From positions 6,721,814 through 6,785,813 of the forward strand of contig NZ_CP118164.1 of the NCBI RefSeq assembly GCF_028748185.1: 64,000 bases of DNA, written 5' to 3'. Every line of letters starts with the position of its first letter. Positions within the stretch are counted from its first letter, which is position 1. Under the pieces are notes generated by a model. It did not search any database, had not been told where the DNA came from, and saw only the letters and a program-made list of their open reading frames with translations. Shown here piece after piece: positions 19,613 through 58,248 of this stretch. The position numbers and the translations under genes are program-made. The stretch is from Bremerella sp. P1 (GTDB taxonomy: Bacteria > Planctomycetota > Planctomycetia > Pirellulales > Pirellulaceae).

Positions 19613-20038
19613 ATGCCTCGCAGCAACTTCTCCGCAACACACGCACTCGCTTTACGAGGACTCATTGTCGTCGAGAACTACGATGACAATTCGTTGACCG
19701 TAGCGCGCCCATGGTCTGTGGCTGGCACAGAGTTCCCTGACCACGCCGACAATGCAGAGTTGGTATGCGGCATCTCTAATACTTGCTTTATCACGAACGC
19801 ACCGATGGCGACGATATCGCCACGACGACGGCCCAAACGATGGGTTGTAGACATGTCCGAGGCGGCCGCACCTGGTCCCGGCCCGGTATACTTTCGTGAG
19901 ACGTTTGAATCTCTGGAAGACGCGACGAATGCGTTGCTTGACTGCTATTTTGGCAACCGTGTAGATTTCAACAATGACTCACTGCAGGCTTGGGGATTGT
20001 CCCCTGCCGGCAACCGATCTGCTCAAAACGGCAGGTAA
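19613..20038 (+). CDS. Hypothetical protein, 141 aa, possible cassette gene
   Basis: Not recognised. MPRSNFSATHALALRGLIVVENYDDNSLTV starts a soluble protein without signal or membrane segment; the middle has RRRPKRWVV and the end is low complexity. Coding character is moderate. Its stop codon lies inside the left core of an attC-like site (20033-20121), which is the normal arrangement of an integron cassette. No ribosome site is obvious. Confidence 0.5.
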   Translation: MPRSNFSATHALALRGLIVVENYDDNSLTVARPWSVAGTEFPDHADNAELVCGISNTCFITNAPMATISPRRRPKRWVVDMSEAAAPGPGPVYFRETFESLEDATNALLDCYFGNRVDFNNDSLQAWGLSPAGNRSAQNGR

Positions 20039-20121
20039 CAACCGGTTGCAATGGAGGCCGCGAGTTGACGTTTTGAAGTGGTGAGTCGTTCGCGCGGCCC
20101 CGCTTAACCGTACCGTTAAAC
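20033..20121 (+). other. attC-like recombination site
   Basis: Left core AGGTAAC overlaps the stop codon of the preceding gene; right core CGTTAAAC closes the site. Inside, CGGTT...GGCCGCG (20043-20062) pairs with CGCGGCC...AACCG (20093-20110), giving an imperfect stem with unpaired bases as in integron attC sites. Identification is structural; no integrase is adjacent. Confidence 0.5.
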
Positions 20122-20141
20122 TTTAAGAGCTTCTGAATCCC

Positions 20142-20909
20142 ATGAATGCTATTCGAGTCGCTGCAATTTGCGTTCTCGTTGCCGTCGGTTGCACGCGTTC
20201 GCCGAAAACCGAAGACAACACTGGGGTGCGGCCTAAACAAAACTTGACTCGGTTGGAAACTGGTGTGAACCCCGAGTCACTTCCACCTCAAATCACGAAC
20301 CAGTTCGGGATGACGTTCCGCCTTGTCACCATCGACACCTCGCGTGTTGACCACCAACAATCGTTTCCCAGAAAATCTTATTACCTGCAGGAATCGAGAT
20401 TGTCGGAGGAGCAACATTCCGCGTTTCGTGAAGCGGCGTTCGGTGATGGAACGTACGAAACGATCAACTGGCATTACAATGGTGGGCATCCGTCCGAATG
20501 GCGTGAGTGGTACCAGTACGCTCAGGCGTTGTCGAAGTTCGACGCTCAGTATGACTACCGTTTGCCGACGCGGTCACAGTGGACCTTTGCCTGCATGAGC
20601 GGCTACGACCAAAGTTGCGACAAGACCAAGCCAAACGCATATGGCATCACTGGGTTGATGGACACCAATGGATTTGCCGAGGCAGTGGACGAACTCATGC
20701 TCCACAACGGCCATGAATTTGGTGTGCTGATGGGCTATTGGTCAAACAATTGGGGAGCGTACGAAGGGAAAACAAAACCGGATTACTCGTGTGAATACTG
20801 GACGATATGCAATCCGGATGCTGATGACAGCCTGAACGAGTCAATCAATGGCAGGTTCATTTTGCTGCCGAAAGAAACGGCTCATTCCTCTCATGGTAGT
20901 GGCGGATAA
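20142..20909 (+). CDS. Exported lipoprotein with formylglycine-generating-enzyme-like fold
   Basis: 255 residues. The start MNAIRVAAICVLVAVGCTRS contains a lipobox (VAVGC), so Cys17 is probably lipidated. The mature part shows features of the SUMF1/FGE-sulfatase fold: QFGMTFRLV near the start, FPRKSYYLQESRLSEEQHSAFREAAFG, YAQALSKFDAQYDYRLPTRSQWTFACMSG and YGITGLMDTNGFAEAVDEL. It lacks the long insertions of true formylglycine-generating enzymes, and their active-site Cys pair is not visible, so a catalytic role is unlikely. The stop overlaps another attC-like site. Members of this fold are common as single-gene cassettes. Confidence 0.7.
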   Translation: MNAIRVAAICVLVAVGCTRSPKTEDNTGVRPKQNLTRLETGVNPESLPPQITNQFGMTFRLVTIDTSRVDHQQSFPRKSYYLQESRLSEEQHSAFREAAFGDGTYETINWHYNGGHPSEWREWYQYAQALSKFDAQYDYRLPTRSQWTFACMSGYDQSCDKTKPNAYGITGLMDTNGFAEAVDELMLHNGHEFGVLMGYWSNNWGAYEGKTKPDYSCEYWTICNPDADDSLNESINGRFILLPKETAHSSHGSGG

Positions 20910-20994
20910 CAAATCTATGCACCGGAGTCGCTGGTCCGGCTGCATCTGAGATCTACGTCGCTGGTAACAACCGGGCTACCCTGGTCGTTATGCC
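20904..20994 (+). other. attC-like site, weak
   Basis: The left core GGATAAC overlaps the stop of the preceding gene, and a right core GTTATGCC (20987-20994) overlaps the start of the next. ATGCACCGG follows the left core as in other planctomycete attC sites. The inner arms pair poorly (ACCGG with CCGGG), so this is a low-confidence call. Confidence 0.35.
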
Positions 20995-21692: not shown

Positions 21693-21816
21693 TTTCCACT
21701 GACTGTCTTAGAGCGACCCTCGCAAGGGGAAATCCGGCAACCTGGTCAGGCCTTAACTGGAGCAGCCAAACCCGGAGGACTCTTGTGCGAGGGTCACTCC
21801 AAGATAGTTGGGGAAA
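21693..21816 (+). ncRNA. ffs: Signal recognition particle RNA, small bacterial type, copy 1
   Basis: RNA scaffold of the signal recognition particle that binds Ffh. The conserved helix 8 core is at 21744-21767: GGTCAGG, an apical loop, then GCAGCC, the same 24-nt spacing as in E. coli 4.5S RNA (5' side GGUCAGG, 3' side GCAGCC). The apical tetraloop reads UAAC, the URRC class, instead of GGAA. Flanking arms pair: TCCGG/CCGGA next to the core, GACCCTCGC (21715-21723) with GCGAGGGTC (21787-21795), and GACTGTCTT (21701-21709) with AAGATAGTT (21801-21809). It lies upstream of dnaX, as scr does in Bacillus. The exact ends are estimates. Confidence 0.88.
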
Positions 21817-21829
21817 GAACGAACAACTC

Positions 21830-21948
21830 AAAAGACTGCTTTCGAGCAATCCCCGCGATGGGAAGTTTGGTTATCTGGTCAGGCCTTAACTGGAGCAGCC
21901 AAAACTTTGCGACTCTTGTGCGGGGGTTCCTCCAGGGCAGTCTTTTTT
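21830..21948 (+). ncRNA. ffs: Signal recognition particle RNA, small bacterial type, copy 2
   Basis: Second copy 14 bases after the first. The core at 21877-21900 is identical to copy 1, but the helices differ and still pair: AAGTTT/AAACTT beside the core, AATCCCCGC (21848-21856) with GCGGGGGTT (21920-21928), and GACTGCTTT with AGGGCAGTC outside. These are compensatory changes, which argue that both copies are selected as folded RNA. The outer stem runs straight into TTTTTTT (21943-21949), so the end doubles as a rho-independent terminator for the tandem transcript. No own promoter is visible. Confidence 0.87.
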
Positions 21949-43066: not shown

Positions 43067-44962
43067 ATGCGACGTGTTGTTTGTACTCTTGCCCTTCTGC
43101 TTGTCGCCGCCGCTGGTGCGACTTCTCAGGCCGAAACGATCGAGACCGACGTTTGCGTTTACACCGCAACCCCGTCCGGTATCCTGGCGGCCATCGCGGT
43201 GAAGAAGGCCGGCAAAGACGTCGTGATCGTCGAGCCAGGCCGCTGGGTTGGTGGCATGCTTGGGGCAGGCCTCAAGCCGATGCAGGACTGCCCGAACTAC
43301 AACGCCACCGGCGGCATGACCAAACCGCTGCTGAAAAGCTTGGGACATGGACCTGGCATCCCCGATGGCATGGTGATCGTCCCGGCCATTCGCCAGGACT
43401 TTCAGCATCTATTGGACGAGCACGAGATTAAGGTTATCCACGAACACCGCGTCGCCTCGTGCACAACAAGCGATTCCGCAATTCAGTCTGCTACGTTCGA
43501 CCTGGCGCCTTTCGATAAGCTGGGCTGCCCACCGGTCGAGCCAACCAAGCCAGGCAACCTGCAGGTCAGCGCCCAGATCTTCATCGATGCCAGCTACGAA
43601 GGGGATCTCCTCGCGGCGGCTGGGTGCTCGTATCGCACCGGCCGTGAGTCGGTTGAGCAGTTCGACGAAGAGGCCGCTGGCGTGCGGGTGCCGGTCGTGA
43701 AGACGCCCATCGATCCCTACGTGACGCCAGGTGATCCCAACAGTGGCCTATTGAATTTGCTGCAAGTCGATCATGGCAAACCGGTCGGCTCGGCAGACGA
43801 GTACACCCAGGCCTACAACTACCGCTACTACACGACCAACAAACCCGAGCATCGCCTGCCGATCGAAGCCCCGGAAGGGTACTCAGCCCAAGACTACGAA
43901 CTGGTCGGGCGTTACGTCGCCTACCTGACCGAAACGATCGAAGACCAGGAAGCCCTTCGCAAGAAGCTGATTGGAATCTGTCCTGGGTGGAAGAACTCTG
44001 GCGAATGGAACTACCAGCGTGACTCGCTGATCACCATGGCTCCGCTGGGCATCAGCCAAGACTATGCCAGCGGCGATGCCGCCACCAAGGCCCGCGTCTG
44101 GAAGGCCCATCAGAATTACCTGCGTGGGCTGTACCAGTTCATGCGAACCGACGAGCGCATTCCCGATTGGTACCGAGAAGAAGTCGGTCAGCTCGGTCTC
44201 GATGGTCGCTATCATGAAGAGACCGGCGGCTGGCCGCATCAACTCTACATTCGCGTCTCGCGCCGCCTGAAAGCGGAATACACGATCACCGCCCACGATG
44301 TCTACAACCGCACCCAGGTAGACGTACCGGTGGGCCTCGCCCAGTACGGGATCGACACTTATCCCTCGCGGCGGATCGTGATTCAGGAAGAGGGCAAGAC
44401 CTTGGTCGCCAACGAAGGAAACATGTTCGTCGGCGGCAACCGCGGCCCGACCAACGTTCCCTACGCCGTCCCTTATGCAGCGATCACGCCCAAACAGGCC
44501 GAGTGCACGAACCTGCTGGTGCCGGTTTGCTTTTCCGCAACCCACTTAGGCTACGCATCGGCACGCATGGAGCCGGTCTTCATGATCTGCGGCGAGTCCG
44601 CCGGTATCGCCGCCGTGCAGGCCATCGAGGAGAACGTCCCTGTCCAGGACATCAACAAGCCGAAGTACTTGGCCGCCTTGGAAAGGGCAGGGCAGAAGCT
44701 TACCTGGGACCCAGCCGTCGACACCCCAACCCGCCCGGCCGCGAACCGGCTCGACTACGCCCGCCTCTTGAAAGAGTGCGACGAGAACAACGACAAGCTG
44801 GTCAGCCAGGCCGAATGGAACGCCGGCAAGAGCGGCTGGGAGTTCCTCTTCCTGTTCATCGACAACGACAAGAACGGGCAGATCGACGAGAAGGAATACG
44901 ACCAGTTCCAGCAGTTCAAGAAACAGCACCCCGACTGGGCCGAGCGGGTCCGAAAGTCGTAG
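43067..44962 (+). CDS. Exported FAD-dependent oxidoreductase with C-terminal EF-hands
   Basis: 631 residues. Signal peptide MRRVVCTLALLLVAAAGATSQA, then an FAD-binding fold (PF12831 type): TDVCVYTATPSGILAAIAVKKAGKDVVIVEP in place of the classic GxGxxG, GRWVGGMLGAG, IFIDASYEGDLLAAAGCSY with the family's ASYEGDL motif, and LVPVCFSATHLGYASARMEP near the end. The last ~70 residues hold two EF-hand loops (DENNDKLVSQAE and DNDKNGQIDEKE), a calcium-binding addition. Role: probably oxidation of a sugar or related polymer component outside the cytoplasm. The stop is only 28 bases from the integrase remnant. Confidence 0.9.
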   Translation: MRRVVCTLALLLVAAAGATSQAETIETDVCVYTATPSGILAAIAVKKAGKDVVIVEPGRWVGGMLGAGLKPMQDCPNYNATGGMTKPLLKSLGHGPGIPDGMVIVPAIRQDFQHLLDEHEIKVIHEHRVASCTTSDSAIQSATFDLAPFDKLGCPPVEPTKPGNLQVSAQIFIDASYEGDLLAAAGCSYRTGRESVEQFDEEAAGVRVPVVKTPIDPYVTPGDPNSGLLNLLQVDHGKPVGSADEYTQAYNYRYYTTNKPEHRLPIEAPEGYSAQDYELVGRYVAYLTETIEDQEALRKKLIGICPGWKNSGEWNYQRDSLITMAPLGISQDYASGDAATKARVWKAHQNYLRGLYQFMRTDERIPDWYREEVGQLGLDGRYHEETGGWPHQLYIRVSRRLKAEYTITAHDVYNRTQVDVPVGLAQYGIDTYPSRRIVIQEEGKTLVANEGNMFVGGNRGPTNVPYAVPYAAITPKQAECTNLLVPVCFSATHLGYASARMEPVFMICGESAGIAAVQAIEENVPVQDINKPKYLAALERAGQKLTWDPAVDTPTRPAANRLDYARLLKECDENNDKLVSQAEWNAGKSGWEFLFLFIDNDKNGQIDEKEYDQFQQFKKQHPDWAERVRKS

Positions 44963-44990: not shown

Positions 44991-45179
44991 GAGACGAAGA
45001 CACTGTGTCACTTGTTCGCAACCCCTCTGATCGAGGCGGGCTAAGACATCCGCACGGTACAGGAACTCCTTGGTCACAGAGACGTTCGCACGACAATGAT
45101 CTACACACACGTCTTGAACCGAGGCGGCCGTGGCGTCCGCAGCCCGGCTGACGGTCTGACTCGTGGTCACGGTGAGTGA
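44991..45179 (+). pseudogene. intI: Remnant of integron integrase (tyrosine recombinase), C-terminus only
   Basis: No start codon; the frame reads ETKTLCHLFATPLIEAG, stop (TAA 45042-45044), then [20 protein letters not shown] and [18 protein letters not shown]. This is the C-terminal end of integron integrases (the family pattern is [48 protein letters not shown]). The box II His of LLGH and the catalytic Tyr of TTMIYTHVL are present, but everything before the box II arginine is missing and the in-frame stop breaks the rest. It is oriented toward the cassette genes that follow, the arrangement known from planctomycete and Treponema integrons. The call rests on the motif and is strong despite the shortness. 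Confidence 0.9.
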
Positions 45180-45266
45180 TATGATGAAACATCCTATCAC
45201 GCAGCGAACGTCTTGAAAAAGATGCAACCACCGAGTACGAATAGACTTGCAACGATTGGCGTCCCG

Positions 45267-45329
45267 CAAGTTAGGCTGACAAGGTTGCAGCCTACACGTG
45301 ATACGCTGATCATCCTATAAACAAGTTAT
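45267..45329 (+). repeat. Leader repeat copy A (attI-like or cassette leader)
   Basis: Between the integrase remnant and the first cassette gene. It contains TAGGCTG...CAGCCTA as a 7-bp hairpin and ends CTATAAACAAGTTA, 22 bases before the ATG at 45351. A diverged copy stands at 48828-48890 before another cassette gene. GTTAGGC and GTTATGCC inside resemble recombination core sites. Confidence 0.6.
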
Positions 45330-45350
45330 GCCGTAACTATCGATGCCGCT

Positions 45351-46322
45351 ATGAGCACTCCCTCGAAGAATTACTCCGGCACGTGGACGACTAATTACCC
45401 AAGCGGGCGCGTTGCGGAGGAAACAGAGTATCGACGAGGGAAGTGGCACGGATCTCGGATCACACGATATGACAACTCCGAAAACTCGCTGAAGGCCGAA
45501 GAGTATTGGAACAGCAATAAGCGAAGCGGTGATTGGAAGACTTGGTTCGAAACACCGCCCAACCAACTCCGCTCCACAGCATCATGGAAAAACGGTTTGC
45601 CCAATGGCACAACCACTCACTGGCACGCAAACGGCAAGAAGAAAAGTGAATGCCAGTATTCGAACGGGATCCATGTCGGTGATCACCAGCATTGGAATGA
45701 TGCAGGGCTGATCATAAAGATTGAGCACTGGCAGTCTGGCAACATCACATCCGTAGAGCACTTCCAGAACGAAGAGGTCACTCAAGTCGACATTTACAAG
45801 CACAACGAAGTCGTAAAGGTCCAACACTTGAAAGATGGAGTCGTGTGTCAAGAGGAAGATCCGCGGCAACGAGATGAACTGGCGTGCCAACTGACAATTG
45901 TCGGTGTCTATCCGGTGGTCCCAACGGCGGAGTCCATCGCACAGGCAGCCCAATACCACAAGTATGAGCACCTTCTTGACGCGAATGGATCGTTCCAAGA
46001 ACCCATCGTATGGGCCAATAACAATGATCTATGTTTGGTCGAAGTTCAGATCGACGGCGATTTTTCGCCAAGGGCTTTGATCCGTTCAATCGGTGCAAAT
46101 GATCAAGCGCCGTATCTGGAGTTTTACATTGATGCGGCTGGCACAACGCTCATTTCAGAGTCTGTGGCGGTCTCGACACCGAAACGCCGCGTCTGTTTTT
46201 TCCTTCACTTCTTGGCGGACAACGTAGTCATCAAGTCAGGAAACGATTCGTTGAATACTCCCGCTCGTGGTCCGGTTCCCGAGCGTCTAGCTTCGTTCGT
46301 ACATTATGTGCCTGTAGACTGA
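45351..46322 (+). CDS. YwqK/MORN-like repeat protein, cassette gene
   Basis: 323 residues, soluble. Residues ~10-165 are six to seven repeats of the type W..NG...G....W...G (TWTTNYPSGRVAEETEYRRGKWHG, ASWKNGLPNGTTTHWHANGKKKSEC, YSNGIHVGDHQHW), as in MORN and YwqK-type proteins. The C-terminal half (~175-320) is a separate domain of unknown function (LTIVGVYPVVPTAESIAQAAQ). No signal peptide. The first gene after the integrase remnant, followed by an attC-like site. Confidence 0.75.
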   Translation: MSTPSKNYSGTWTTNYPSGRVAEETEYRRGKWHGSRITRYDNSENSLKAEEYWNSNKRSGDWKTWFETPPNQLRSTASWKNGLPNGTTTHWHANGKKKSECQYSNGIHVGDHQHWNDAGLIIKIEHWQSGNITSVEHFQNEEVTQVDIYKHNEVVKVQHLKDGVVCQEEDPRQRDELACQLTIVGVYPVVPTAESIAQAAQYHKYEHLLDANGSFQEPIVWANNNDLCLVEVQIDGDFSPRALIRSIGANDQAPYLEFYIDAAGTTLISESVAVSTPKRRVCFFLHFLADNVVIKSGNDSLNTPARGPVPERLASFVHYVPVD

Positions 46323-46345
46323 TGGTGCCGTGCACCCAATTCACG

Positions 46346-46436
46346 GCATAACTAGTGGCTGAACCGGAGCGGCCGGTCCGGCGGAGTCAAGTGGAAAGCT
46401 GATCGGCGGCCGCCCGGTTAGCCTGATCGTTATCCC
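46346..46436 (+). other. attC site
   Basis: Left core GGCATAAC (46346-46353) and right core CGTTATCC close the site. The inner arms GGCTGAACCGG and CCGGTTAGCC pair perfectly except for one extrahelical G in the left arm, the hallmark of attC folding. The site is 91 bases and lies between two cassette genes. Confidence 0.82.
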
Positions 46437-46453
46437 ACATAGGAGCTGCCGCC

Positions 46454-46909
46454 ATCACCATCGTCTACGTTGACATGGACGACGTCTTGTGTGCTTACAC
46501 ACCCGCACATTCCCGTGCGCTAGACGATCAGCCCGGCGTTCAATTCCCGCAGTCCGTACCGGGGTTCTTCCGATCACTCGCTCCTATTGATGGCGCGATT
46601 GCTTCACTAAACGAACTGCGTGACCTGTTTGACGTTTACGTTCTAACTGCACCTTCCACACGCAATCCGCATTCATACTCTGAAAAACGTATCTGGATCG
46701 AAGAGCACTTTGACTACCCGTTCACCAAGAAACTGATTCTTTGTCCAAACAAGGGCTTACTCAAGGGTGACTACCTGGTTGACGACCACGTCACGGGCAA
46801 AGGCCAGGATGCGTTCGAAGGAACGTTGATAGAATTTGGTTCGAACGATTTCCCTGATTGGCATGCCGTTTTGACATTCCTAAAGAAGCGTGGGATAACC
46901 AACGGATGA
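46454..46909 (+). CDS. 5'(3')-deoxyribonucleotidase-like HAD protein, cassette gene
   Basis: HAD-superfamily NT5C type. The expected N-terminus ITIVYVDMDDVLCAY contains the DxD nucleophile pair (Asp7, Asp9), but the first ATG (46475) lies inside DMDD and would remove Asp7. An AGGAG (46441-46445) stands eight bases before an ATC codon at 46454, so translation may begin at ATC, or the original ATG has mutated. Later motifs: VYVLTAPSTRNPHSYSEKRIWIEEHF with the motif II Thr, KKLILCPNKGLLKGDYLVDDHV with motif III Lys and motif IV DD. The product removes phosphate from deoxynucleotides in known members. Stop overlaps an attC-like site. Confidence 0.8.
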   Translation: MTIVYVDMDDVLCAYTPAHSRALDDQPGVQFPQSVPGFFRSLAPIDGAIASLNELRDLFDVYVLTAPSTRNPHSYSEKRIWIEEHFDYPFTKKLILCPNKGLLKGDYLVDDHVTGKGQDAFEGTLIEFGSNDFPDWHAVLTFLKKRGITNG

Positions 46910-46982
46910 ACCGGAGTCCTCGCGTTCATCTTGGGCAGTAGTTGCCTTTCCCCTCGGACCCGGTGATTGCGGGACTTTAGGC
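46893..46982 (+). other. attC-like site, degenerate right core
   Basis: Left core GGATAAC overlaps the stop codon region of the HAD gene. ACCGGAGTCC and GGACCCGGT form the stem with mismatched bulges. The right core has decayed to CTTTAGGC (46974-46982) where GTTAGGC is expected. Confidence 0.6.
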
Positions 46983-46988
46983 GGTCAC

Positions 46989-47534
46989 GTGGAATCTGAG
47001 GAAATCATTAAGGAATGGATTAGCAGCGATCCTATTCGCATGCGCGCTCTTCGCCTGGCATCAGAATTAAATCTTTCTGACTGGTGCATCGCGGCAGGCT
47101 TCGTTGGAAATCTTGTATGGGACAAGCTTCATAAAAAAGAAACATCGACACCGCTCAATGATTTCGATCTTATCTATTTCGATCCACAAAATATTGCGTC
47201 AATGAACGATAGGCAGCTCGAGCTGCGACTCAAGAATCTGACGAACCAGCCTTGGTCCGTTAAAAATCAGGCACGCATGCACATTCGAAACAAAGATAGA
47301 CCCTATACGTCTACCAGCAATGCGATGAGTTACTGGGTCGAAATAGAAACTGCCGTCGGAGTAAAATTGTCCGAAACAGGCGAAATTGAGTTAGTCGCAC
47401 CATTCGGAATTGAAAACTTGTTTCGAAACACAATCACAATCAATCGAAAGAGAATAAAACCTGCCGACTTCTATAAAAGAATCGAAAGCAAGAATTGGTT
47501 AACCCAATGGCCAAAATTGAAAGTGATCGCCTAA
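46989..47534 (+). CDS. Nucleotidyltransferase family protein (NTP_transf_6), cassette gene
   Basis: 181 residues, GTG start. It matches the family of small nucleotidyltransferases PF06042: DWCIAAGFVGNLVWDKLHKKE, then PLNDFDLIYFDP with the DxD metal site, WSVKNQARMHIRNKDRPY, and the end FYKRIESKNWLTQWPKL. AT-richer than the surrounding genome, in keeping with acquisition by a cassette. The stop TAA is inside the left core of a canonical attC site. Confidence 0.85.
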   Translation: MESEEIIKEWISSDPIRMRALRLASELNLSDWCIAAGFVGNLVWDKLHKKETSTPLNDFDLIYFDPQNIASMNDRQLELRLKNLTNQPWSVKNQARMHIRNKDRPYTSTSNAMSYWVEIETAVGVKLSETGEIELVAPFGIENLFRNTITINRKRIKPADFYKRIESKNWLTQWPKLKVIA

Positions 47535-47603
47535 CAAGCCCATGCAGTCGGACCAAATTGCCGGCTGCTCCGTCAATATGGCCGCTGATGCGGGGCGTTA
47601 GGC
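47529..47603 (+). other. attC site, canonical cores
   Basis: Left core GCCTAAC (47529-47535) and right core GTTAGGC (47597-47603) are exact complements. Inner arms CAG-T-CGG and CCGCTG pair with one extrahelical T. 75 bases long, directly between two cassette genes. This is the clearest attC in the window. Confidence 0.9.
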
Positions 47604-47712
47604 CACTCGAAAACCCTTTCTGTACCACCGGACACTTGATGTGCGGCCCTGAACGGTCGGCGCTCGTAGCGTGTCGTATCACAATTCTCCATTCATATGA
47701 GGCGGTCAAGCA

Positions 47713-48246
47713 ATGTTAACCTTACGTGTCGTCGTGCTGTGTCTTACGCTCTGTGTGGTCCTGAAGTGTCAATCACAGGTGCTAGCCGCGAACCCCCGCG
47801 CGGAAGCGGCGGAGGCCGCATACAAGAAGGCGATAGACGACGCTCGGAATATCTACATTGGTGAACTCGACGCGGCCATCAAGGAGGAAGGGGCTGACGG
47901 AAACCTTGAAGAAGCCAACAAGTTGGCGGACATGAAGGAATCGCTTCTACTGGAAGCGAAGCTCGGGGACAGCGATCCTGCATTCGTAACGTCAAAGCGA
48001 CTCGAGAACACAAGGTGGGGCACCCGAGCGAACCCCAAGGGTTTCATCAAGTTCCTTTCCAACAACAAGACACAGAATCACCTGAAAACTGGGGGAGTGT
48101 GGATCGCCTCCGACGAATCTACCGTGATCACTCAGAGCCGGAACAGTGGTCATATTTACTTGTTTCAATTCTCGAAGGACCTCAAGACGGCAACAGTGCA
48201 TCGATTCGAGAACGCGAAGCAACCGGAGGCATATTTCAGAAAGTAA
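47713..48246 (+). CDS. Exported protein of unknown function, cassette gene
   Basis: 177 residues. Signal peptide MLTLRVVVLCLTLCVVLKCQSQVLA; then a charged helical segment (AEAAEAAYKKAIDDARNIYIGELDAAIKEEGADGNLEEANKLADMKESLL), a pattern widespread in planctomycete secreted proteins, and a C-terminal beta-rich half (KRLENTRWGTRANPKGFIKF, SGHIYLFQFSKDLKTATVHRF). The half resembles small domains that follow such helices, but I cannot name it. Flanked by attC-like sites. Confidence 0.7.
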   Translation: MLTLRVVVLCLTLCVVLKCQSQVLAANPRAEAAEAAYKKAIDDARNIYIGELDAAIKEEGADGNLEEANKLADMKESLLLEAKLGDSDPAFVTSKRLENTRWGTRANPKGFIKFLSNNKTQNHLKTGGVWIASDESTVITQSRNSGHIYLFQFSKDLKTATVHRFENAKQPEAYFRK

Positions 48247-48248
48247 AA

Positions 48249-48366
48249 TGCTAAGGGAACGCGAGGTGGTGGCCGAACGAGTCGTCGAACGGGAACAGGG
48301 ATGGCGACGGGCGATCTCTTGAACTCTTCGAGGCATCACCCACCGCAATCCCGCCCCGTTAACTCA
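48249..48366 (+). other. attC-like site, degenerate
   Basis: GCTAAGG and CGTTAAC are decayed cores. Inner arms GCG-A-GGTGG and CCACCGC pair with an extrahelical A. 118 bases, longer than the others, which is within the range of attC sites. Confidence 0.55.
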
Positions 48367-48377
48367 GTCAATATGCC

Positions 48378-48668
48378 ATGAATAATCCAGTGCATCGACA
48401 ACGTCTCAACGATGCGTTTTGCTCTACGAATCCGTCAGATGAGCTTTTCCATTTGGCAATTTCATTGCGGGACGAAGGAGTCCAGCAGATCACGCTCTAT
48501 TCGTTGTTCTCAAGCCTTCAGGTCGCGACCCCAGGAGACGATCCTCGATATGATGCGATCGTGGATACGATGGACTTGATTTATGGGGGACCTTGGGCGA
48601 AGGGCAACGCTCTTTTCCCGACGGAGCTTACGGATGACCAAATCCGCGAGCTTAGGAAAGAGGCATGA
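48378..48668 (+). CDS. Small hypothetical protein, cassette gene
   Basis: 96 residues, soluble and mostly helical. MNNPVHRQRLNDAFCSTNPSDELFHLAISLRDEGVQQITLYSLFSS begins it; the end is LTDDQIRELRKEA. It resembles short cassette proteins without a named domain. No ribosome site is visible; cassettes often rely on weak initiation. Confidence 0.6.
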   Translation: MNNPVHRQRLNDAFCSTNPSDELFHLAISLRDEGVQQITLYSLFSSLQVATPGDDPRYDAIVDTMDLIYGGPWAKGNALFPTELTDDQIRELRKEA

Positions 48669-48746
48669 CAAGGCGTCGTACACGGAACCGCGGTCCGCGC
48701 GGGTTCTGAAATTAAAGTCGTTCGCCGCGCCCCAAGAGCGTTAGAC
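48664..48746 (+). other. attC-like site, weak
   Basis: The left side CATGACAAGG is degenerate, the right core GCGTTAGAC (48738-48746) is good. GGAACCGCGG and CGCGGGTTC form an inner hairpin. Placed after the 96-residue cassette gene. Confidence 0.45.
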
Positions 48747-48827
48747 AGGAGCCGCCTATCACGCACGAACAAGCGTGACAATTGAGCAACCTACAGCTAG
48801 AATTCGACGTAGGAGAATCAACTGCCT

Positions 48828-48890
48828 GCGTGCTAGGCCGCACATTTGCAGCCTACAGGTAATAGGCAGAAACTTTCTATGAACAAGTTA
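48828..48890 (+). repeat. Leader repeat copy B
   Basis: Diverged copy of the sequence at 45267-45329: GCGTGCTAGGC, TTTGCAGCCTACAGGTAATA and CTATGAACAAGTTA align with it. It ends 19 bases before the ATG at 48910. Only these two of the six cassette genes carry the leader. Confidence 0.6.
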
Positions 48891-48909
48891 GCAATCAGCA
48901 CCATCGCCT

Positions 48910-49596
48910 ATGTCTACTAAATCAGCCGCCACAATTCTCATCGTCCTGTCCTGTTTCACGGTCGTGAATGCTGTCGCAGCGCAAGACAAGGCAACAACCA
49001 TCGGATTGATAGGTGACTCCACCGTTGCGACGACCTATGGATGGGGCCCTGCCTTTGCGGAGAGATTCAACGACTCTGTGACGGTGCTGAACTATGCGAA
49101 GAACGGGGCGACGCTGGATTCTCTTTCCGGGAAACTGGACCGGCTCATCGAGCAGAAGCCAGACTATGTGCTGATTCAATTCGGGCACAACGACATGAAA
49201 CGATACGACGCCGAAGCCTACGGCACAAAACTCACCGACTATATCCAGCGAGTTACACGCGGTGGCAGCCAAGCCATTGTTCTCAGTTCCGTAACCCGTC
49301 GAACCTTCAATGAGGACGGTAAGATCGTGCCTCGGATTGTCAACGGGAACCGGACCTTGCCTGAATTTGCTCAAGTGGCGAAGGCCGTTGCTCATGAAAA
49401 CAAGGTCCCGTTCATCGATCTGAATGCGATCAGCATCGAGCACCACAACAAAATTGGCCCGGCAGCGAGTGCGGCTTACAACTTCAACGAAACCGATAGA
49501 ACTCATTTCAGCAAGAAAGGAGCCGCCGCGACTGCTGATCTGATCCTGTCGGAACTCACGACTGTCGTCCCCGAGTTCTCAAACTATCTCAAGTGA
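48910..49596 (+). CDS. Exported SGNH/GDSL hydrolase (acetylesterase-like), cassette gene
   Basis: 228 residues with a signal peptide (ILIVLSCFTVVNAVAAQ). SGNH blocks: TIGLIGDSTVATTYGWGPAFAERF (block I, Ser38), NGATLDSLSGKLDRL (block II), IQFGHNDMKRYD (block III, GxND) and NETDRTHFSKKGAAATADLI (block V, DxxH). The type is that of rhamnogalacturonan acetylesterases. It removes acetyl groups from polysaccharides in known members. Preceded by leader repeat B. Confidence 0.85.
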   Translation: MSTKSAATILIVLSCFTVVNAVAAQDKATTIGLIGDSTVATTYGWGPAFAERFNDSVTVLNYAKNGATLDSLSGKLDRLIEQKPDYVLIQFGHNDMKRYDAEAYGTKLTDYIQRVTRGGSQAIVLSSVTRRTFNEDGKIVPRIVNGNRTLPEFAQVAKAVAHENKVPFIDLNAISIEHHNKIGPAASAAYNFNETDRTHFSKKGAAATADLILSELTTVVPEFSNYLK

Positions 49597-49598
49597 CT

Positions 49599-49662
49599 GC
49601 TAACCACGCCGTGAATCCAGCGACAACGGAACTCCACGCGTAGCGTGACCGCCCTGTTACAC
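49599..49662 (+). other. Possible attC-like site
   Basis: GCTAAC (49599-49604) and GTTACAC (49656-49662) could be cores and CACGC/GCGTG inner arms, but the rest pairs poorly. Confidence 0.3.
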
Positions 49663-50091
49663 CAAACGCTGTCTTGCCAAGCAATTGGCTGATCGTATTG
49701 AGTCCCGCCCTTAAACAGCGTAAGGAGGGCGTGACATTGGCCGTCCTTAGCTCCAAACGTCCAACTAGATCAAGGTTGGGGTGATGGTCAAATTCACCAA
49801 AGACTAAATTGCCGAACGGACGCGGCTGGAGGGGACAGGTCAGAAGACGATGATGTTATTGGGGTGCGGTTTCTTGTTATTTATTACTTCGGTCACGATC
49901 GTCCACATCAAAGCAGGAACACGAACGCAGGCACGAATTCTCAGTGAGTTCTTGAAACGTTTGTGAAACGGCATCAGAAATAGAAGATCGTATTCTTACC
50001 AATGAAGTATTTCCCGCGGAACCTAAAACGATGCGAAAGTACAATGGTTGATTAACGGTTAAGAGTCGATCCAAAGATGGAGTCTTGATCC
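49663..50091. other. Intergenic region, nothing recognised
   Basis: About 430 bases with no convincing gene. It looks like decayed sequence at the end of the cassette block; no complete core sites are seen after 49662. Confidence 0.4.
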
Positions 50092-52457: not shown

Positions 52458-53399
52458 CTATCCATACCTTTTCTTAAACACAATCCGTTTACCGGTCAGC
52501 TTCACCTGACTTCCCTTTTCAGTGGCCAGCTGGGACTTTCGGGTATCGGAGTCGTATTTCGTGATCAACTTCTCGTCTGGGTCGGAGTTGTTCCACTTGA
52601 TGTGCACGTGGAACATTCCCTTCGTGGAGAATGTCCCGACCGTCGCGTTTGAGTCCGGGGCGGACGCCGGGGACTTCGGCGGGCGGGAAGTACACGTCAC
52701 TTTGCCATTGGCTGCAAAGTAGTAGTAGTAGGTATCGTACGGTTCTTCGAACACCTCCCACCAACCTCCGAGCCAGTAGGGAAGCGGCTCGCCGCTATTG
52801 AGCAGCGCCTTGATGCTGACCCAGCCTTGCAGTCCGGCCGGCTTCCAGGGTCGCGTCTTCCTCATGAGCTTGTCATACCCGGTCCGGCGTCCTCCTTGCC
52901 CTGAATCGGCCGAATGGAGCGTGCCCCCTTCCACGTACAGCACCACACCCATGTGATTTTGCCGCAGGCCATTGGCATCAGGCTTAGCACTGAACAAGCG
53001 GAACATATCGCCATACTCTGGCAGGGCTCCGCTGCTAGCAGGAACCCAGCAATGGCCGAGCCCGCGGGTTGCCAGCCAGTCCTTGATATCGAATCGCCCG
53101 ACCGCCTTGTCGGCGCCTAGCCCCATTGCGGTTCCACACTTCGTGCAGAACTCGTTACAGGTCGTCGTCCCTTTGCGTAACCACGTCCTGAGCAACGATA
53201 GATGCTCCCATCCGGTGTACTTTTTGAAGATTTTATTGGTGACGCACTTCTTTTCGATGTCGTCGACATCGGTGCTTGTGAATGGATACTGCAAGATCGG
53301 TGTTCCCGATGGAACTTCCCTGCCGACCGGAGGAAACTCGCTGAAAAATGCGTGCAGTTTCCTCTGATAATCCTCGGTAATTTTTGCGCCTGCTCCCAT
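52458..53399 (-). CDS. Cys/His hydrolase-like protein (CHAP/NlpC-type amidase fold)
   Basis: 313 residues from ATG 53399, with GGAAAGG about 11 bases before it; two further ATGs upstream are possible. The centre has TTTCNEFCTKCGTAMGLG with a catalytic-type Cys81, then PEYGDMFRLF and QNHMGVVLYVEGGTLHSADSGQGG with His149, the layout of CHAP and NlpC/P60 amidases. No signal peptide is found. Such signal-less peptidoglycan amidases occur as toxins or effectors delivered by other secretion systems. The C-terminal ~100 residues are beta-rich (GKVTCTSRPPKSPA...). No immunity-type gene or secretion gene is next to it. Function inferred from motif only. Confidence 0.65.
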   Translation of the reverse strand: MGAGAKITEDYQRKLHAFFSEFPPVGREVPSGTPILQYPFTSTDVDDIEKKCVTNKIFKKYTGWEHLSLLRTWLRKGTTTCNEFCTKCGTAMGLGADKAVGRFDIKDWLATRGLGHCWVPASSGALPEYGDMFRLFSAKPDANGLRQNHMGVVLYVEGGTLHSADSGQGGRRTGYDKLMRKTRPWKPAGLQGWVSIKALLNSGEPLPYWLGGWWEVFEEPYDTYYYYFAANGKVTCTSRPPKSPASAPDSNATVGTFSTKGMFHVHIKWNNSDPDEKLITKYDSDTRKSQLATEKGSQVKLTGKRIVFKKRYG

Positions 53400-53796
53400 A
53401 GAAATAGAAACCTTTCCCATCAAATGAAAAATGGACCCAAGAGACGAGATGCGATCGGCAGCAGAATTCGTCAATCAGAACGAAGCGCCGAGCATTCGGA
53501 CAGTGACTTGCCACTCGCCGAAATGATGTTCGGCGTAGACTTGCTCGGAAACAACCGAGCACCGGTTGAGAAGCGACCTCAGAACGGCCCGCGTTTGCGG
53601 ACGGAAAACAAGTCAGTCATTAATGATTATCTTCCGTTTTCCCGAACGGTTGCGTGGATTCCGTCGCATTCAAGCAAGAATTGTGAGGACTCGTCTCAGA
53701 CTACGACGCTTGCGTGAAAACGTCTACAATCATCCACCGACGACTTCGATCCATAATTGCGCTGGCGATTCGAAACCAAACCCCGGGTTTTGTCGG
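53400..53796. promoter_or_regulatory. Divergent region between two genes
   Basis: About 400 bases between the amidase-like gene and the 53797 gene. It should contain both promoters; no motif stands out and no other gene is supported. The frame open from 53566 is noncoding-looking (arginine-rich, low complexity). Confidence 0.4.
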
Positions 53797-57279: not shown

Positions 57280-58248
57280 ATGGTCCGCACTATTCGAAGA
57301 AGGGCATTCACACTCGTTGAATTGCTGGTCGTCATTGCCATCATTGGCGTTCTCATCGCTCTTTTGCTGCCGGCGGTGCAACAGGCTCGCGAAGCGGCTC
57401 GACGCATGCAGTGCACCAACAACCTCAAACAGTTGGCTCTATCGCTGCACAACTTTCACGATACCTACGGAAACTTTCCGGTCGGGGAGCAAGACGACGA
57501 CAATGGCCAATGGGGCTGGGGCGTTGCTGTTCTTCCATACATCGAACAGAACAATATCTACGATCTGTTGACCGCCGATACGGCTAACTTTCTGTACCCA
57601 ATTCCCGGAGGCGGCGACAATCCGTTTGGAACCACCGATGGCGGCAACAACAACGCCACGACCGTTCGGACGGCAGCTGGTGGTGGAGCAGCCACCAACG
57701 TGATCGACGCATTCGTTTGTCCCAGCGACATCTGGCCGGAACGAAATAGTGGTGGCTTTGGTAAGACGAACTATCTCGGCTGCATGGGTAGCGATACCAG
57801 CGGCGGCAACTGGGCGAGTTGGAGCAATCCCAACGGCGGCACGGAGAATGGCATTCTGCTACAGGCCAACAACAACAACAAAACTTGGGTGACCAACATG
57901 GCCGCGATCACTGACGGCACCAGCAACACGGTCGCCATCGGCGAAGCAACTCCAGACAACCAGGATTACACGATCGATCAGACTGCCCGAGTTCCGAACT
58001 GGGCTGGCGGCAACGCTGGTTACGCTGGCCAAGGACGTCAGCACAACTACCTTCGCATCATGGACCAAGCCTACCCGCTGAACTTGAAAGTCGGTTCCAA
58101 CGCCAATCGCTGCTTCGGCAGTCAGCATCCTGGCGGTGGGAACTTCGCTCTGTGCGATGGTTCGGTTCGCTTCCTGGCTGAAACGATGGACGGGCTCGCG
58201 TACCAAGCGTTGGGCACCCGAAACGGCGGTGAGGTCGTGAGCCCCTAG
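57280..58248 (+). CDS. DUF1559 protein with type IV pilin-like N-terminus
   Basis: 322 residues, with GGAG before the ATG. The prepilin peptidase site and N-terminal helix read [37 protein letters not shown], followed by [24 protein letters not shown], the DUF1559 signature. Inside are [30 protein letters not shown] and the C-terminal [22 protein letters not shown] (H-x-GGxNxxxxDGSVRF). The family is greatly expanded in planctomycetes, is processed like pseudopilins, and its function is not settled. It is followed by a lipoprotein gene, the usual partner. Confidence 0.95.

Follow-up and report, generated by a model that had tools for sequence, protein, structure and literature searches.

Structure of the locus

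The window analysed here is a stretch of 64,000 nucleotides of Bremerella sp. P1, positions 6,721,814-6,785,813 of a one-contig 6.96-Mb genome (G000), and it holds an inverted integron that has decayed, together with its row of cassettes. Behind a FAD_oxidored gene, whose stop lies at 44962, the tail of an integron integrase gene (intI) is followed by an attI site, gene cassettes with their attC sites, a second attI and a right end shared with other loci, which we call X. The features are as follows:

44994-45158, + strand: intI tail, the ~55 final codons of an integron integrase, interrupted by a single TAA at 45042-45044
45149-45327, + strand: attI type B, crossover G^TT with the G at 45325
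45326-46429, + strand: cassette 1, MORN_2-like protein (coding sequence 45351-46322) and attC 46345-46436
46430-46976, + strand: cassette 2, NT5C-like nucleotidase (coding sequence 46475-46909) and attC 46892-46983
46977-47597, + strand: cassette 3, NTP_transf_6 nucleotidyltransferase (coding sequence 46989-47534) and attC 47528-47604
47598-48358, + strand: cassette 4, exported-looking protein of no family (coding sequence 47713-48246) and a degenerate attC from ~48269
48359-48740, + strand: cassette 5, 96-residue protein (coding sequence 48378-48668) and a partial attC 48684-48733
48740-48889, + strand: attI type C, the second attI, without intI tail, directly before the SGNH cassette; G^TT with the G at 48887
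48888-49666, + strand: cassette 6, SGNH/GDSL hydrolase (coding sequence 48910-49596) and attC from ~49594
49667-49744, + strand: shared right end X, 79% identical to the copy at locus L048

In a profile search the intI tail aligned with positions 261-315 of the integron integrase profile TIGR02249 and, with an X placed at the stop codon, scored 85.3 bits, versus 52.7 for XerC and 51.7 for XerD. By these scores a remnant of XerC/XerD or of a phage recombinase was rejected. The first-pass annotation, made from the letters alone, had read here the C-terminus of an integron integrase interrupted by a TAA, 28 bases behind the preceding gene, and had named XerC/D as the competing match; the frame, its stop codon and the gap of ~28 bases were all recovered, and the best score was that of the integron family. 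The integrase of the window is represented by this remnant only. Over 145 bp its DNA is 89% identical to the intact intI of a sister genome (G001), which scores 446 bits, above the cut-off of 265, and which presumably carries the integron-specific patch, as implied by its full-length match and by the usual position of the motif. The genome of Bremerella sp. P1 itself has no TIGR02249 match above the cut-off (0/1 matches), and by that measure no functional integrase was found in it; a second intI tail, with one TAG, is located at 5,443,220. Among the matches listed, the closest named relatives of the sister integrase are from a Planctomycetota and a Pirellula metagenome-assembled genome. A plasmid origin of the intact G001 intI with its attI (a query of 1080 bases) was also considered and rejected. 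No close plasmid source was found, because 0 of 236 plasmid records covered 80% of the query and 235 were only 60-80% identical to it.

The attI sites and the orientation

The attI-B site is 91-94% identical in five other copies and is conserved up to AAACAAG; beyond G^TT these copies change abruptly to different cassettes. As judged from the sequence, this would be an attI next to intI with cassettes entering at its G^TT. Type A adjoins the intact sister gene, and its perfect 30-bp palindrome spans the stop codon of intI; of the 15 truncated A copies, 3 lack this palindrome and have kept the core. Type C is 76-84% identical over 136-153 bp to copies at L062, L079, L042, L048 and, in the same genome, L063, and a 71% match immediately follows an intI that belongs to another family (L022). 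We infer that the window array looks like two units in a row. In the other array of this genome, a second attI-A copy (L015:7179-7216, 89% over 38 bp) lies behind the first cassette without an intI tail, a parallel to the second attI of the window.

In the intact G001 copy (L041), intI and three attC sites are found on one strand, with intI pointing at the attC sites, and the window tail points at its cassettes in the same way. Both loci have the order of an inverted integron, and the reverse type proposed by the annotation holds. Sixteen other integron loci searched with the same attC model comprise seven of conventional order, where attC sites lie on the opposite strand upstream of intI (L017, L020, L021, L083, L106, L131 and L148), one inverted (L081 of a Pirellula sp.) and eight without an attC match.

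The cassettes and their attC sites

The six genes follow the tail on one strand (45351-49596), as had been claimed. Their proteins match Pfam MORN_2 (27.8 bits, below the 29.6 cut-off), NT5C (49.1 bits), NTP_transf_6 (199.5 bits) and Lipase_GDSL_2 (68.5 bits), and those of cassettes 4 and 5 match no Pfam family.

The attC sites were searched with a covariance model built on 21 training sites outside the window (20 from sister genomes and one from the other locus of this genome), which were hand-picked from the candidates of a script requiring paired L boxes. The consensus hairpin has R and L boxes and, on the L'' side, one unpaired base, the extrahelical base. In the 64-kb window the model gave 6 matches up to E 10, all on the + strand, of which 2 lie in a second array at 20 kb and 4 in the array described here: those of cassette 1 (68.2 bits, E 8.6e-18, the best in the array), cassette 2 (25.3 bits, E 6e-5), cassette 3 (22.8 bits, E 3.4e-4) and cassette 5 (19.0 bits, E 0.0047, partial, with model positions 22-72 only). 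A covariance model was the check that the first-pass annotation had pointed to, and both sites it had named, those of cassettes 1 and 3, are among the four. Among 24 loci chosen for a tail, an attI or a right end, 21 have attC matches (51 in total, training sites among them). Five places of the own genome together give 8 matches up to E 1, and the nine genomes of the genus give 66 up to E 0.001; eight stretches of sister genomes from the corresponding chromosomal region (L071-L078) gave none.

Because the beginning of a cassette and the R'' core of its attC are neighbours in the circular form, the two are expected to pair. In the window such pairing is seen at 10/10 positions in cassette 1 (R'' at 46343) and in cassette 2, at 8/10 in cassette 3, which is preceded by a core with an altered G, at 9/10 in cassette 4 (with 48269-48278) and at 10/11 in the SGNH cassette (with 49594-49604), and hence at 8/10 or better in 5/6 cassettes. 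Random 10-mers placed within 150 bp reached 8/10 in 403 of 5000 trials, 9/10 in 34 and 10/10 in none. Across 46 cassettes, 225/276 outer positions pair with the own R'', versus a mean of 121 (standard deviation 7.3, maximum 151) in 20,000 shuffles of the partners, and 34/46 cassettes pair at 5 or 6 of 6 outer positions. This statistic used 48/51 locus attC matches and 5/6 window matches, with neighbours at most 2500 bases apart and with attI places located by short motifs ending in the core. On the model matches and the pairing of cassette starts, chance hairpins in an ordinary gene cluster were rejected as the explanation. With at least two attC sites and no usable intI, the array is a cluster of attC sites lacking an integron integrase (CALIN).

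The window site in sister genomes

Homology to G001 and G006 ends at the stop of the FAD gene and resumes at 53796 and 54544 (G001) or at 52729 and 54544 (G006). The corresponding place in G006 holds a stretch resembling attI-C (72.6% over 73 bp, E 0.002), followed by a short frame and then by a frame of 388 residues, which looks like a transposase; G001 has other genes there. The aconitase side was matched in 7/8 sisters and the other flank in the eighth, among the matches listed. None of the six cassette genes had a match in other genomes among those listed in the DNA search of the genus, and the conserved gene order that the annotation had held up against its own reading was not seen in relatives.

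Truncated integrases across the genus

In nine genomes of the genus, the own one included, two DNA searches gave 23 copies of intI, of which one is intact (G001) and 22 are truncated (G000 2, G001 1, G002 2, G003 3, G004 2, G005 3, G006 2, G007 5, G008 2). An integrase above the TIGR02249 cut-off is found in 1/9 of these genomes. Left out of the 22 were two 64-nt matches of 77% identity lying in open frames of 330 and 317 residues (G002 C12:16579 and G006 5472237), opposite-strand matches of 29-31 nt to the attI-A palindrome, a 38-nt attI-only match in G000, and short matches of 29 and 58 nt (G008 2999292 and G002 C7). Each of the 22 begins only after some 72% of the gene, the first nucleotide kept being 748-937 of 1038; the copy at G005 C267 additionally keeps a 47-nt island from the middle of the gene. 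A 931-nt query covering the 5' region of intI and the DNA upstream of it matched in full in G001 only, and its short matches in G003 and G007 fall in that upstream DNA and at the beginning of their tails. Neither a 5'-only piece nor a full-length point-mutated copy of intI was found among the nine genomes. In other genera, a search of 40 genomes gave both C- and N-terminal pieces among the matches listed, mostly in many-contig assemblies.

The tail continues into an attI in 21/22 truncated copies (15 of type A and 6 of type B); the exception, G005 C231, ends short of attI and has an attC after it. Gene capture seems to have been switched off repeatedly in this genus. In copy c of G007, as read by eye, the intI tail and the beginning of a cassette gene after an attC are fused, apparently in frame (L048:8787-8990, minus strand).

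Some deletion joints recur at loci that are otherwise unrelated. Joints between the left end Y, which in G001 lies 110-175 bp before intI, and the tails that it often precedes were read by eye from an alignment of the tails. One Y-tail joint is common to five loci in five genomes (G001 C16, G002 C19, G005 C281, G006a and G008a), with two further joints near it (G002 C21 and G004 C7). Another joint is common to G006b and G007a, and a joint near codon 250 is common to G003b and two G007 loci. The two G007 loci also share a second internal deletion, absent from all other loci compared. Of 26 tail/attI places, the only pair from different genomes sharing long flanks on both sides is the intact G001 copy and G006a, at aguA. 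For every A tail the closest sequence is that of the intact G001 gene, alone or in a tie. Between the own genome and G001, a tail with attI-A is 97% identical over 268 bp, versus 83% over 3972 bp for aconitase and the FAD gene; the sequence comparison thus suggests that at least some units spread after the species split, or that their DNA is held by selection.

The ends X and Y and the aguA site

The X query either found X, with matches in all nine genomes, or, where X is absent, matched through its Y part only. Y begins with the core GACGGTTCGWCC, and the same core, with at most 2 mismatches, lies 17-28 nt after X in 11/20 X ends; by eye, seven of these continue into Y and four have only the right-hand piece of X. 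In this count 3/23 rows were set aside as not being X (L059 7819, L060 10739 and 12117), and a short X-like piece of L052 was missed. At aguA the core stands on both sides of the element in G006 and likewise in G001, with one mismatch on the right. The element is absent from aguA in 7/9 genomes, and these seven also lack ~100 bp to the left and ~170 bp to the right of it, so that none of them offers a clean empty site. On whether these are the defined ends of a mobile element, the observations are the direct repeat of the core at aguA and its presence beside 11/20 X ends, and no clean empty site. The 12-mer of the core is not enriched in the nine genomes (76 occurrences versus 64 for the reversed control).

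Two further flanks were noticed by eye. An imperfect direct repeat of ~55 bp, part of a gene end, flanks the element of G005 C231 (L055, minus strand, before 2810 and after 219), and the end of a tRNA-like gene lies ~350 bp to the left of the G006b element (L050).

Proposed history and alternative explanations

In our reading, to which we give a probability of about 0.9 as a whole, the locus is a decayed inverted chromosomal integron that has lost the 5' part of intI and has been joined by a second attI unit, in a genus where truncated units of this kind are widespread and partly copied. An IntI encoded toward attI would once have recombined the attC of circular cassettes with attI-B, placing them at its G^TT; the attC sites and the pairing of cassette starts with their own R'' support this. 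The promoter-proximal four fifths of intI, which are missing, would have been lost afterwards, leaving the ~55-codon tail, the attI and the cassettes. At some time the second attI type and one more cassette, both present today, would have become joined to the array. The cassettes may now be fixed in cis and movable only with an integrase supplied in trans, since the genome has no integron integrase above the family cut-off; the array is probably frozen in cis. In the genus, a platform of Y, intI, attI, cassettes and X would have been repeatedly reduced to units with a truncated intI. The shared joints, and the double deletion found twice in one genome, support that truncated units were also copied.

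Several points weigh against this reading. The integron-specific patch falls outside the remnant, upstream of the piece that survives. Cassette 5 has no matching R'' (best pairing 7/10), and the attC sites of cassettes 4 and 6 have no covariance-model match and are called from the pairing with R''. The covariation in the model is not independent, because paired L boxes were required by the script before the choice by hand; 21 of the 51 locus matches are training sites, and 3/24 chosen loci (L057, L058 and L063) have no attC match. The similarity of some tail pairs does not exceed that of housekeeping genes and falls to 73% with gaps included, and the view that the array is frozen compares one genome per species.

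The alternatives differ in what they deny. It could be held that the tail comes from a XerC/XerD- or phage-type recombinase and that the rest is an ordinary cluster with chance hairpins, as the C-terminal box is common to a wide range of tyrosine recombinases and matches to TIGR02249 below the cut-off occur in all 14 control genomes; against the 32-bit preference for an integron integrase, the attC matches and the pairing of cassette starts, its chance is close to nil. A more serious objection grants the integron and disputes the copying: each locus would have decayed by its own deletion, with joints recurring through short repeats. Such short matches, for example CGAGG on both sides of the common joint, can be seen by eye, as can at least four classes of joint; the closeness of the A tails to the intact gene gives a star-like pattern; and elsewhere intI is often a pseudogene, as were nearly a third of the genes in an early survey (PMC2426708). 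Yet independent loss would hardly be expected to give the compound double deletion at two G007 loci, nor 0/22 full-length point-mutated copies and 0/22 5'-only pieces, nor the high similarity between species in the clearest pairs, and we regard it as possible though rather unlikely.

It is also conceivable that the array is not frozen, an attI without intI being still served in trans by the integrase of a sister copy or of a visiting element. The first cassettes behind dead tails can pair perfectly, at 6/6 outer positions (in the window, L015, L045, L046, L053 and copy c of L048), and attI is retained in nearly all truncated copies; however, perfect pairing may mean only that the deletion is recent, and retaining the cassettes entails retaining the attI before them. 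With an above-cut-off integrase missing from the own genome and present in one of the nine, service in trans appears unlikely. Perhaps, instead, site-specific recombination between X and Y, at GACGGTTCGWCC, mobilises the platform as a whole, which would agree with the core at the start of Y and after 11/20 X ends, with its place on both sides of the element at aguA and with the emptiness of aguA in most genomes. The nine X ends without the core, the window's among them, the four that have only the right-hand piece of X, the lack of enrichment of the 12-mer and the stretches missing along with the element at aguA make such mobility quite doubtful. Our preferred reading remains the decayed inverted integron among truncated and partly copied units.

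Other features of the window

The first-pass annotation was silent on the second attI type, the shared right end, the integrases beheaded throughout the genus and the second attC array. This last one is small and lies at 19613-20994, behind frames of 141 and 255 residues:

20032-20122, + strand: attC of the second array, 64.3 bits
20903-20994, + strand: attC of the second array, 32.8 bits

No intI tail and no attI of type A, B or C was matched beside it, and the one pair compared showed start pairing at 2/6 positions. A stretch of ~170 bp at 57307-57480 has very many matches in all nine genomes, at 77-85% identity among the matches listed. No tRNA was found in the window by ARAGORN, and Rfam at gathering thresholds reported only the signal recognition particle RNA at 21709-21804; a similar second copy, seen by eye at ~21850-21940, was not reported at that threshold.

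Relation to known integrons and significance

Taken alone, the locus is of a known type; what is unusual is that, within one genus, intI has repeatedly been beheaded at many loci and attI has stayed in place. As in Treponema denticola and the inverted IntIs, which form a subclade, intI is transcribed toward attI in the direction of the cassettes (PMC3607928, PMC8352920); attC models of planctomycetes also exist (PMC8352920). In contrast to such inverted chromosomal integrons, the window has only a tail of intI and has a second attI type in the same array. It resembles a CALIN in being an attC cluster without usable intI, and it differs in keeping an intI tail and an attI in front, which makes its origin readable; loss of intI has been proposed among other routes to CALINs (PMC8618304, PMC9024848). 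The integrons of Xanthomonas likewise show inactivation and loss of intI throughout a genus with arrays kept, yet mostly at one ancestral locus beside ilvD, whereas here many loci are involved, the type is inverted and the 5' part is lost in every truncated copy (PMC12444791). Among the titles and abstract openings searched, most subscription journals lying outside that literature, none dealt with units of a truncated intI plus attI. The class 1 integron described by Gillings in 2009 is said to be flanked by MITE-like structures (MITE, miniature inverted-repeat transposable element). It is similar as an integron reportedly moved by short elements on its flanks, but here the ends Y and X are unlike each other and mobility would be a matter of interpretation.

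The gain and loss of chromosomal integron platforms is an open question, and for Treponema, where inverted integrons and a remnant without intI are described, the mechanism is called unknown (PMC3607928). In a single genus there are now an intact copy, 22 beheaded ones whose joints can be read, attI sites of three types and array ends that can be recognised, and with such material the origin of CALINs, the loss of the integrase and the spread of platforms become directly testable; the attI sequences and the genus-specific attC model can be reused. We would also put forward, as a tentative idea that is more probably wrong than right, that in this genus integrons multiply as beheaded non-autonomous units (Y, tail, attI, cassettes and X) which move between loci and species through the site at the Y/X junction and gain cassettes through an integrase working in trans. 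If this is true, a whole network of attI sites could draw on a single intact integrase, and these units would be the integron counterpart of MITEs, giving a concrete route by which the "sedentary" integron platforms may spread.

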